Shown piece by piece: positions 6,647 through 30,583 of a stretch of 64,000 nt of DNA (within the stretch, counting starts at the first letter, position 1; each line of letters begins with the position of its first letter). The stretch covers positions 682,001-746,000 of the forward strand of contig JAGYIV010000008.1 in the NCBI GenBank assembly GCA_018402345.1, given 5' to 3'. Made by a program: the position numbers and the translations under genes. The notes beneath the pieces are model-generated. The model ran no database searches. It worked only from the letters and a program-made list of their open reading frames with translations, and had not been told where the DNA came from. The DNA is from Terrimicrobiaceae bacterium (GTDB lineage Bacteria; Verrucomicrobiota; Verrucomicrobiia; Chthoniobacterales; Terrimicrobiaceae).

Positions 6647-9379
6647 TTATTTGTCGGCGAGTCGCAGCACAAGCTTGAGGGCGTCGGTGCGGACGGTGGC
6701 GGAGGCGAACGCCTCAAGCAGGCTGTTTTTCAATTCCTGCAGCCCCGTGATTTCCTCGTTCCGAATCGAAGGATTGATGCGCCGCAAATCCTCAAGGCGC
6801 TCGATCTCGCCTTTCAACTGATCAGTTGGCCTTCAGCGCGGCCGCCGCTTGAACAATCGATTCCTTGCGCTTCCCGGCGATTTCGGTCGCTTTGGCGAGC
6901 ATCGCCGGCAGGTGCTTCTTTTTGAAGACAGGCGTGTCGAGCAACCGGAAGACATCCCCTTTCTCGAACTCCGCCGCTCGGAAGGAGTCATCGTCACTGC
7001 GATCACCCAGCGTTTGATCGACCACGACGCGCACGGGCGTGGCGGGCAAAAAGCGGTCCGCATGCAATCCCGGCGGCGCCACACACTCGATGACAAAGTG
7101 GATCTCGAGAAGAATGCCGTCCGCCTCTCCCGATCGCCACACCCCGAAGACGGAGTTGCCCGCTTCGATGCCCAAGAGCGCGTCCAGCGAGGCTTGGACA
7201 AGCGGATGGTCCGGCGTCAGAAATCCGACATCCTCCCGCGACAGGGCGCGCGCCCGCTCAAAGGTGAACATCGCCCCCTCGGGCGTGAGCCCGGGCAGGG
7301 CGGCGTTTTGGGATGCCCCGCTCCTCAACAGATACGAGCGGCTGCCGAGCTCCTCGACCTCGACACCCAGATGGTCGAGCATGCGAATGAAGAACGCCTC
7401 GAACCCAGGGTCGCCGTCCTGTTTGCGGATTGTGTCGATCAGCGGAAGAGCCAACTCGGGCCGTTTTGAGTGGATTTCCAGCAGCCGATCATGGCCGCGC
7501 TGGAGGCGCTTGGAGATGCTCTTATTCGCAACCACAGTCTCCTCCAACAGTGCCCGAAAGGCATTTTCATCCTGTGTGACCGGCACACGGCTGCAAGACG
7601 CTTGAACGAAATTGCTCCATCAGCGTTGGCGCACCGTGCGGATGCTTCTGAAACGCATCCAATCCCTCGTGATACCACCTGCGACAAATATTCCTCGGGT
7701 AACCCCTTGAGCACAGGGATATGGATATGAATGGTCGAGGTCTGGCCGATGCGATCCAGTCGCCCGATACGCTGCTCGAGCAACTCGGGGTTTTCCGGCA
7801 CATCGAACAACACAAGATGGTGGGCGAACTGGAAATTGCGCCCCTCGCTTCCGATCTCAGAGCACACAAGCAAGCGGGCCCCGTCCTCCTCGGCAAAGAA
7901 CGCCGCGTTCCTGTCGCGCTGGAGCAGTGTCAATCCCTCATGGAACACAGCCGCCGGGATTTTGACGATGCGTTGCAAGCGCTCGAGCACCTCGACCGCC
8001 AACTCACGCGAATGGCAGATCAGCAGGACTTTTTGTTTTTTCAGTTCCTTGAGCAACCCGACCAGCCAACTGATTTTTGCCTGAACGGCATCGCCCTCAT
8101 CATCCAATACCGAGAGGCTCGCCTTGCGCTTTGGAAACCCGCCAGGGCCGCGCGAGTATTCCGAAACATGACGCGGCCAGTGCCAAACTCGTCGAGCAAT
8201 CCAGCCACCACGCGATCCCTGGCGGCCGCGTCGCCAGCCAAACTCGCGGCGTAATGCTCCGCCAGTCGCGTGCCTTCGATCATTTTCTTGTCGGGAATTT
8301 TTTTGCCGGCCAGCACAGCATCCACCGCCTTTGCCACGGCCTCGTAGCGGTCGGCCTCCTTCAAAAACCCCTCCAGATCGTTGTAGCGATCGGGATCGAG
8401 CAACCGCAACCGTGCGAAGTGGCCTTCCATGCCGAGTTGCTGCGGCGTGGCTGTCAGCAGCAGGAGCGAAGGCACCGACGCGGCGAGCGACTCCACCAGC
8501 GCGTAGGCGGGCCCGGCCGCAGCCGGAGACCACTCGAGGTGGTGCGCCTCGTCGACAACCAGCACATCCCAACCGGCCTCCCGCGCCTGCTCCGCGCGCT
8601 TGGGATTCGTGACAAGGAAGTCCAAGGCACAAATCACGAGCTGACTGTCGAGAAACGGATTCGCTCCGTCCTGCTCGAGCGAGGTGCAACGCTCCTCGTC
8701 GAAGATGCTGAAGGTCATTTGAAACCGGCGGAACATTTCGACGAACCATTGGTTGAGCAACGCGGGGGGAAGCAGAATCAGCATCCGCCCGGCCCTGCCC
8801 GTGACATGGAGGCGGTGCAAAATGAGACCGGCTTCGATCGTTTTTCCAAGCCCGACCTCGTCTGCCAACAACACGCGCGGCGACAGGCGCCCTGCAACCT
8901 CGGCGGCGATCGAAATCTGGTGCGGGATCAAATCCACCCGACCCCCAGCAGAACCCCCGGGCCGGAGCCTGCCGGATCGCCCGGCGGCGGTTCAGGCACT
9001 CGACGCGCAGGCGGAACGATTCCATCTCGTCGACCTGACCCGCAAACAGCCTGTCCTCTGGCTTGGCGAATCCGATCTGGTCGGACAACTCGGCTTCGGT
9101 GACTGCCCGTCCACCGCACCTGTAGGTGAGCAATCCGCCGTTGTCCTCAACCGAATCAACCACCATCGCCTCGCCGGAATGGGTGCGAATATTGTCGCCC
9201 TCGCTGAAGACCACCCGCCGCACCGGAGCGCTGCCGAGCGCGTATTGCCGGTGCTCGCCGGAGGCCGGAAAGAACATCTCCGCGCGGCCCAATTCGCTTT
9301 TCAACACAATGCCGAGGCCTAGCTCGGGCTCCGTGTCACTCACCCAGCGCTGGCCGGGAACCGGTGTTGTCATACTCAT
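6647..9379 (-). pseudogene. rapA: RNA polymerase-associated helicase RapA, frame-disrupted at about five sites
   Basis: RapA is a SWI2/SNF2 ATPase that recycles RNA polymerase. The complete gene can be followed end to end, about 910 codons against 968 in E. coli, but it changes frame near 8956, 8137, 7680, 7605 and 6830. In order: N-terminal domain (TPVPGQRWVSDTEPELGLG, PEDRLFAGQVDEMESF), Walker A LLADEVGLGKTIEAG, DEAHH, LLLLTATPQQLGMEGHFA, helicase C part (VLLICHSRELA, CSEIGSEGRNFQFAHH, EQRIGRLDRIGQ), WYHEGLDAF, and a C-terminus ending DALKLVLRLADK. The start overlaps the ABC-F stop as ATGA. Five breaks could mean true decay, but conservation between breaks is excellent and neighbouring genes carry similar lesions, so sequence error is at least as likely. 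Confidence 0.85.
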
Positions 9380-27533: not shown

Positions 27534-28268
27534 ATGCAACGCCAAGCCACAATTCTGTTTCTTGGCAAGGATACTTCCCCGCTCGACCTGGTCCATGCGG
27601 CGGTTTCGCGGGCGGATGTCCTAGTCTCCACAGTCACCGATTGGCTTGCTGCGCTCCACAGCGCCTCGACAAAACCTCCAACGGTGCTGTTGATCGGTCC
27701 CGATATTCCCGTAGCGGACATGCGCTCGTTCACCGAACAAGCGAAGTCCAATCCGGCATTGAAAAACATCCCCTCCGTCCTTCTCGTTTCCGAGGCGTCG
27801 AGGGATGTCATCCTCGAATTCATCACCCTCGGAGTCCGCTCCTACATTGTCATCCCGTGTCGGACAACCGCACTCCGCACCCGTCTCGCTTTTCACATTC
27901 CGGCACTGTCCGGAAACGCCTCGGCCCGCCCCCAACCACCCGCTAAAAGCGTTGGCGAACGCCTGCGTCAGCGCATGGAGCGAAAGTCGATCCAAGACCT
28001 GCAAAACTCCCTCCAAACCCCCGCGGAAACCATGCCGTTTCCCTCCATCCTTGTCGTTGAGCAAATCTTCTCGGAAAATTTCGGCCTCACCGTCCGCGAA
28101 AATGAACGCCACGTCTCCCTCTACGAGAAAATCGACGACCTGAAGCTCCGCCTCGGCGGCAACAATTCCCACCTCGTCGGGGTTGTCATCCAACTCCTCT
28201 CCGTCGGCAAAGTCCGCATCGGCTTCCGCGAAAAACCGAACGCCTTTGCCTTGCCGATCCAGCCATGA
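27534..28268 (+). CDS. Pseudo-receiver domain protein of unknown function
   Basis: A 244-residue soluble protein. Residues 1-120 follow the beta/alpha pattern of a response-regulator receiver: strand ATILFLGKD, strand [15 protein letters not shown], strand [15 protein letters not shown] and strand [19 protein letters not shown]. The phospho-accepting Asp position is Gly (LIGPDIP), and the conserved Lys before the last helix is not present (IPCRT), so phosphorylation is not expected. A Pro-rich, basic linker follows. The C-terminal domain (about 160-244, with [20 protein letters not shown] and [20 protein letters not shown]) I do not recognise. It lies 12 bases after ssb and may share its transcript. 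Confidence 0.7.
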
Positions 28269-28443: not shown

Positions 28444-29484
28444 ATGCCCGAGCCAGATGTCAAATCTCCCCACGCCGACCCGCTTGACGCCACGTTCGAG
28501 GTCTCGCTCCGCCCCCCGCTCTTCGAGGAATTCGCCGGACAGGATAAAACCGTGGAGCGACTCAAGGTCATGGTCGATGCCGCCAAGACCCGGGGCGACA
28601 CGCTCCAGCACATCCTCCTCAGCGGCCCCCCCGGCCTCGGAAAAACCACCCTCGCCTACATCATCGGCAACGCCATGGGCGCCGAAGTTCGCACCACCAG
28701 CGGCCCCATGATCGAAAAGGCGGGCGATCTCGCCGGACTCCTCACGAACATCGAACGCGGCGGCGTCCTTTTCATCGATGAAATCCACCGCCTCCAACCC
28801 GCCATCGAGGAGTATCTCTACCCCGCCATGGAGGACTTCAAACTCGATATCGTCATCGACCAGGGCCCGAGCGCGCGCACCGTCCGCCTCAACCTCGCCC
28901 CCTTCACCCTCGTCGGAGCCACCACCCGCTCGGGCATGATCAGTGACCCCCTCCGCTCGCGCTTCGGCATGAACTGCCGCCTCGACTACTACTCGGCCGA
29001 GCATCTCGCCTCGATCGTTTCCCGCAGCGCGGGCCTGCTTGGCACGGACATGAAACCCGGAGCCGACCTCGAAATCGCCCGTCGCGCCCGCGGCACGCCC
29101 CGCATCGCGAACAACCTCCTCCGCTGGGTCCGCGACTACGCCCTCGTCCGGGCAGACGGCTCCATCACCCCGCACATCGCCGCTGAGGCGCTCACCATGC
29201 TCGATATCGATGCCGACGGGTTCGACGAAATGGACAAGCGCATCCTCGAAGCCCTGATCGGCCTTTTCGACGGCGGCCCGGTGGGTGTGGGCAGCCTTGC
29301 CGTCGCGATCGGCGAGGAGGCCGGAACCATCGAGGAGGTCCACGAACCCTACCTCATCATGCAGGGCTACATCAAACGCACCGCCCAAGGCCGCGTGGCC
29401 ATGCCGAAAGCCTACCGCAAAATCGGCCTCGAAGCACCCGCTGCCACGAGCACCGCCCCGCAGCCCGACCTCTTCGGCAAATAA
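28444..29484 (+). CDS. ruvB: Holliday junction branch migration helicase RuvB
   Basis: AAA+ motor that drives branch migration with RuvA; 346 residues. Seen: [20 protein letters not shown], Walker [18 protein letters not shown], Walker [11 protein letters not shown], sensor 1 [20 protein letters not shown], sensor 2 [18 protein letters not shown], and the C-terminal winged helix with [22 protein letters not shown] and [17 protein letters not shown]. The ATG at 28444 gives the family start ([20 protein letters not shown]); the frame is open further upstream but without family similarity. ruvA and ruvC are not in the window. Confidence 0.95.
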
Positions 29485-29490
29485 TCCACC

Positions 29491-30583
29491 ATGCCCGCCT
29501 CAGCCGCCCGATTGGTTCTCCTCGCCATCCTTCTAGCCGCCACCGCATCCACATTGCCCGCCTCCACCCTTCGCGTGGGCGTCCATGACAAACCCCCGTT
29601 CGCCATCAAAGAAAGCGACGGCTCATGGCACGGCCTCTCCGTCGCCCTGTGGCGGAATGTCGCCAACTCTGCCAACATCGATTTCGAATTCGTCGAAACC
29701 CCCTACGAAGACCTCCTCGCCGATATTTCAAAAGGAAAAATCGATGTCGCCGTCGGAGAGGTTCCCGTTCGGCCGACTTCCCTCCCGGGCGTCGAATTCA
29801 CCCAACCCTTTCTGATCTCCTCGATCGGCGTCGCCATGCCCGACATACCCTTGGAATACGCTTGGAGAAGCCTCGCCCGTGAATTCATGGACTGGACCTG
29901 TCGGGCGCGTCTTGCTGGGCATTTTTGCGGCTCTGGCACTTGTCAGCATGATCCTCTGGATCATCGAACGCCACCATGGACACGGCCACTTCCACGGCGG
30001 TCTCCGAGGCTTCGGCTCGGCGCTGTGGTTCTCGGCAGTGACAATGACCACCGTGGGCTACGGGGACAAAACACCGGTCACCTTCCCGGGCAGGTTGCTT
30101 ACATTTTTTTGGATGCTCTCCGGTGTCCTCCTCGTTTCGATCTTTACCGCGACTGCGACATCGCGCATGGCGGCCGCGCGCATCTCGACTTCCATCTCCC
30201 ATATCCACGACTTGAACAAATTCGTCTGCGGTGCCCTCAAGGGCTCGGAATCCGAACAAATTCTCCACGAACTCGGACTCCGCACCCTCCCCTTCGAATC
30301 CCTCGAAGAGGCCCTTGCCCAAATGTCCAACGATCGCCTGAAAGCCGTTGTTGCCGATAAAAACTCCCTGCTCTACCTCCGAAAAACACTTGCTGCCACG
30401 GACCCATCCCTGGACTTCGACGTCCTCGACATCGCCGTGCGGCAAACATTTATTGCGATACCCCACCGGGAAAATCTTCCCGAGTCCCAACAAATCAACC
30501 ACGCCCTCGTGGCTTTCATCAACTCCAACGAGTGGGTCATGCTTCAAAACGAGTGGCTGGGCTCGCGCGGATTGATCCCATGA
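29491..30583 (+). CDS. GluR0-like prokaryotic receptor channel (ligand-binding domain split around a K+ pore), one frameshift near 29895
   Basis: About 363 residues once repaired. Signal peptide (residues 1-25), then a periplasmic-binding-protein lobe (S1: LRVGVHDKPPFAIKESDGSW, GKIDVAVGEVPVRPTSLPGV, EFTQPFLISSIGVAM). Next come transmembrane helix M1 (GRVLLGIFAALALVSMILWI), a pore loop with the K+ filter MTTVGYGDKTPV, helix M3 (LLTFFWMLSGVLLVSIFTAT), and a second binding lobe (S2, about 215-363). This is the order of Synechocystis GluR0, the potassium-selective glutamate receptor ancestor type. The frame shifts between S1 and M1 (29881-29905). The S1 position that usually carries an Arg for the amino acid carboxylate (T-x-E-R) reads RPTS, so the ligand is uncertain. 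It sits in the cytoplasmic membrane, 6 bases after ruvB. Confidence 0.82.

Follow-up and report, generated by a model that had tools for sequence, protein, structure and literature searches.

A GluR0-type K+ channel gene of a Terrimicrobiaceae bacterium, interrupted by a single extra base, belongs to a clade lacking the S1 arginine

The locus described here raises two questions: whether a gene that runs through two reading frames encodes one receptor channel, and what that channel would bind, given that the arginine which holds the ligand carboxylate in GluR0 is missing from it. To our knowledge, few prokaryotic ionotropic glutamate receptors (iGluRs) have been characterised by experiment. The architecture of GluR0-type channels is known; what is new is a clade with a rewired pocket that lacks the S1 Arg. 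The window, that is, the whole 64,000-nucleotide stretch of DNA analysed, contains one member of this clade, whose features are listed in Table 1.

Table 1 The channel gene, its parts and the adjacent ruvB gene in window coordinates
Feature	Positions	Strand	Basis or remark
ruvB	28444-29484	+	6 bases upstream of the channel gene
Whole gene, GluR0-type receptor channel	29491-30583	+	363 aa with the extra base read through
Signal peptide (predicted), residues 1-24	29491-29562	+	hydrophobic N-terminal helix; sequence and model helix 3-17
Binding lobe S1, residues 26-118	29566-29844	+	SBP_bac_3; alignment to GluR0 S1
His32-Asp-Lys34	29584-29592	+	His32 and Lys34 shared by all 12 members of the arginine-less clade
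Glu90	29758-29760	+	invariant in the arginine-less clade; elsewhere mostly Ala or Pro
RPTS at the T-x-E-R site, residues 94-97	29770-29781	+	Ser97 at the position of the carboxylate-binding Arg
Frame break, one extra base	29897-29902	+	orthologue alignment and codon model; exact base ambiguous from sequence alone
Transmembrane helix 1 (TM1), residues 135-162	29893-29977	+	model
Pore helix and K+ selectivity filter TVGYGD (30050-30067)	30002-30067	+	Ion_trans_2; model
Transmembrane helix 2 (TM2), residues 198-233	30083-30190	+	model
Binding lobe S2, residues 238-357; Asp289 at 30356-30358	30203-30562	+	alignment; model

Domain order and fold of the read-through protein

Frame 1 is open from the ATG at 29491 and encodes a hydrophobic leader followed by S1, which matches SBP_bac_3 in Pfam (1.2e-14). 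Frame 2, which ends with the stop at 30583, encodes TM1, the pore, TM2 and S2 and matches Ion_trans_2 (5.8e-15) and Lig_chan (7.9e-14). The full-length protein was obtained by reading one four-base step (TGTC). It contains a single SBP_bac_3 domain at residues 27-357, into which the K+ pore is inserted, together with Ion_trans_2 and Lig_chan.

The AlphaFold2 model, calculated with an alignment of 79 sequences, has a mean pLDDT of 92.4 and a pTM of 0.81. Its top solved match in VIA-align is the Synechocystis GluR0 core with L-glutamate (1ii5; Z 25.8, rmsd 2.6 Å), covering 216 of 221 residues and model residues 22-357. Since this core ranks first over that range, S1 and S2 come out in the model as the two lobes of a single ligand-binding domain. 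The Nostoc punctiforme GluR0 core (2pyy) shares the fold as well (Z 24.6), whereas it keeps T-A-E-R at the S1 site. The top ranks in Foldseek are occupied by whole AMPA receptors, and the channel is a distant relative of the glutamate receptors of the brain.

As in GluR0-type (Group 1) channels, a single solute-binding domain is divided into S1 and S2 by two TM helices with a P loop, the K+ selectivity filter within Ion_trans_2 reads TVGYGD, the ligand core has the GluR0 fold, and the amino-group-binding Asp of S2 is present as Asp289. The best structural match, Synechocystis GluR0 (slr1257), shares the order signal peptide-S1-TM1-P-TM2-S2, the K+ filter and the S2 Asp, whereas core identity is about 24% and RPTS stands in place of T-x-E-R. 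The protein differs from a glutamate receptor in the strict sense in that the S1 alpha-carboxylate Arg is replaced by Ser97. An earlier note, made from the sequence of the window, had proposed this domain order, the K+ filter and the missing S1 Arg; the order is borne out by Pfam, the model and the read-through domain match, and the filter and the RPTS motif are as it described them. The note would have given up its reading had S1 and S2 not modelled as a pair of lobes; the model shows both.

The channel gene, ruvB and the two genes that follow lie on the plus strand. Downstream of it come first a homoserine-kinase-like gene of the GHMP family and then one for an MscS-type channel, and ruvB also neighbours the channel gene in two other members of the genus. 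The locus gave no Rfam match, and neither a promoter nor a forward terminator was found at the channel gene. Between ssb and ruvB, positions 27534-28268 (plus strand) encode a 244-aa protein without a Pfam match.

Orthologues encoded in one frame, with 43-48% identity, occur in 11 genomes of the same family. The verrucomicrobial origin that had been proposed for the receptor is supported. One further relative, in genome G004, is spread over two contig ends. Within the order, 36 of 197 genomes have a match at E ≤ 1e-40. The earlier note had spoken of few prokaryotic receptors of the GluR0 type, whereas an alignment search of public species genomes found relatives encoded at no fewer than 504 loci (80 of these at least 504 loci are covered here); the matches listed include Verrucomicrobia, Proteobacteria, Bacteroidetes, Chlorobi, Planctomycetes and others. 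A pattern search of genome contigs with a single protein gave no match.

Origin of the frame break

A codon model built from 464 kb of the same contig, which uses no homology, places the switch of frame at 29900. The alignment with intact orthologues agrees on the site (EFMDWT/VGRVLLGI versus DFLNWTVGQFVIGI, the slash marking the break) and requires exactly one base to be skipped, at about 29897-29902. The earlier note had called the break a one-base change and probably a sequence error; the error is supported by the split genes described below, whereas the change itself is an insertion and not a substitution.

The second frame has a GTG start at 29879, from which a separate protein could be made, and the two products might also be joined through programmed frameshifting. 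S1 by itself is only half a domain, the orthologues are encoded in one frame without any frameshift, and inspection of the break by eye showed no slippery site, all of which makes either arrangement extremely improbable. Moreover, none of the orthologue matches in the genus is split at the same point.

The insertion is present in the assembled sequence, and a genuine break would make the gene a recent pseudogene in this strain. The conserved sites argue against it. The 31 columns that are invariant across all 29 sequences (the window and 28 relatives) are retained by both halves, far beyond chance. In addition, of 75 positions that are invariant in the clade, the window protein differs at 6, within the range of 0-9 in its intact kin, which gives no indication of decay.

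Breaks of the same kind on the same contig also count against a genuine break. With a strict penalty, the codon frameshift model missed the break in the channel gene; with a loose one it called many ordinary gene junctions, and the candidates were filtered by open reading past the switch. Three filtered break candidates were checked against family models. The pheT, hisD and ftsH genes are broken in a similar way, near positions 444515, 472795 and 538876 of the contig (G000:C2), and PheT, HisD and FtsH, read across the breaks, each give one continuous NCBIfam equivalog match above cut-off. Particularly, PheT is essential, and the only pheT copy of the genome sits in two adjacent pieces. Because these three genes are split alike, the assembly carries single-base indels, and the break in the channel gene is most simply one more of them. 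A pseudogene is thus quite unlikely; an assembly indel is the best account of the break, with the gene intact in the organism. It is a genuine channel gene of GluR0 architecture with a K+ filter, hidden by the indel, and it serves as a warning that this assembly splits intact genes.

Elsewhere in the window, breaks in a SNF2/RapA-like helicase gene and an ABC-F-like gene were noticed by eye only, near 8165, 8937 and 9724.

The binding site of the arginine-less clade

Outside Verrucomicrobia, almost every relative resembles GluR0 in having Arg as the last residue of the S1 motif. In a survey of 22 prokaryotic channels, this Arg and the Asp of S2 were reported as conserved without exception (Ger et al. 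2010, PMC2950845). The Group 1 channels of that study share the K+ filter and the domain order with the window protein, whereas the S1 Arg, totally conserved there, is absent from its clade. This clade comprises 12 proteins, namely that of the window, ten from members of the genus and one from a member of a sister genus, with a branch support of 95-99%. The Arg position is occupied by Ala, Ser or Asp in all 12, so the loss, which the earlier note had treated as an oddity of one protein, is clade-wide; only the RPTS motif itself is peculiar to the window protein.

The comparison of ligand contacts with GluR0 gives a carboxylate Arg that is lost and an S2 Asp, Asp289, that is kept in 12/12 members. 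His32, Lys34 and Glu90 are invariant among them. Residue 290 is Lys or Arg throughout the clade, and at position 92 the usual Thr has given way to Glu, Ser or Pro. In sister verrucomicrobial proteins that retain the Arg, the S2 Asp is often missing.

By parsimony over 118 sequences with the K+ filter, the Arg position needs at least four changes. The S1 Arg thus appears from these sequences to have been lost at least four times, against its reported total conservation. His32 is also found in proteins of Martelella and Rhodobacteraceae that lost the Arg. It occurs in 16 of 30 arginine-less versus 4 of 88 arginine-bearing sequences, a difference that is not significant because only about four independent losses, and hence about four independent contrasts, underlie it.

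Further iGluR-like channels occur in the same family. Those encoded at L022, L023, L027, L028 and L029 (about 1300-2560) and those at L024, L025, L026 and L031 form two groups without the K+ filter, in which TGKSxYKGFPG (TSHSVYKGFPG in L027) and VGGADNKGP, respectively, replace TVGYGDK. Members of both groups match SBP_bac_3 and Lig_chan, and the second group keeps the S1 Arg. A separate verrucomicrobial set (L152, L154, L156 and L158; about 1500-2500) carries TIGYGDK and has neither the S1 Arg nor the S2 Asp, with INIELLKKLAF and LSELEQLR as example motifs.

Predicted ligand and function

GluR0 carries K+ and is oriented like the animal receptors (PMC13099474). By analogy, the signal peptide would export the membrane protein, the periplasmic two-lobed S1+S2 domain would close on a small molecule, and closure would pull open a tetrameric, K+-selective pore in an inverted, iGluR-like orientation. 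With the Arg lost to Ala, Ser or Asp, the S2 Asp kept, and His32, Lys34 and Glu90 fixed, the site is most likely retuned to another ligand. Having lost the Arg that grips amino acids, the clade probably senses something other than glutamate; the ligand may be an amine or a cation, or perhaps an acid held by another side chain. From the missing carboxylate Arg, the added Glu and the retained Asp, we infer that an amine or a cation would suit the pocket better than glutamate. An arginine-less site could also bind poorly or leave the channel constitutive.

An ordinary alpha-amino acid might still be bound if Lys34, Arg94 or the Lys/Arg at 290 replaced the lost Arg. Every clade member has Lys34, a basic residue at 290 and the S2 Asp for the ligand amino group, and Arg94 of the window protein lies three residues before the lost Arg, where its relatives have Thr or Ser. 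Yet only one other protein, a distant arginine-less one (L071), shares Arg94 with the window protein, and a basic side chain at 290 is seen in relatives that have kept the S1 Arg as well, so that we consider such a replacement rather doubtful. A GluR0-type K+ channel encoded by the read-through gene, its break arising in the assembly and its pocket retuned, is the explanation that we hold as a whole to be likely.

Under KCl stress, GluR0 contributes to the control of cell volume, and an MscS-type gene lies two genes downstream of the channel gene, which makes an osmotic role a possible candidate function.

Insect ionotropic receptors (IRs) lack the K+ filter. Like the clade described here, they are channels of the iGluR type in which residues that contact glutamate have disappeared from the binding domain (PMC2924276), whereas they are animal proteins and represent a parallel case, not relatives of the clade. 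We suggest tentatively, and with somewhat less than even confidence, that a Spartobacteria clade of K+-selective receptor channels gave up amino-acid recognition and is gated by other molecules through a joint His32/Lys34/Glu90/Asp289 site. The same Arg loss together with His32 in alphaproteobacteria raises the prospect that GluR0 channels may serve bacteria as general chemosensors, much as IRs serve insects. If this is true, the arginine-less clade and the several independent lineages would mean that bacterial ligand-gated K+ channels sense beyond amino acids, and they would offer a small, testable model for ligand change in iGluR pockets.
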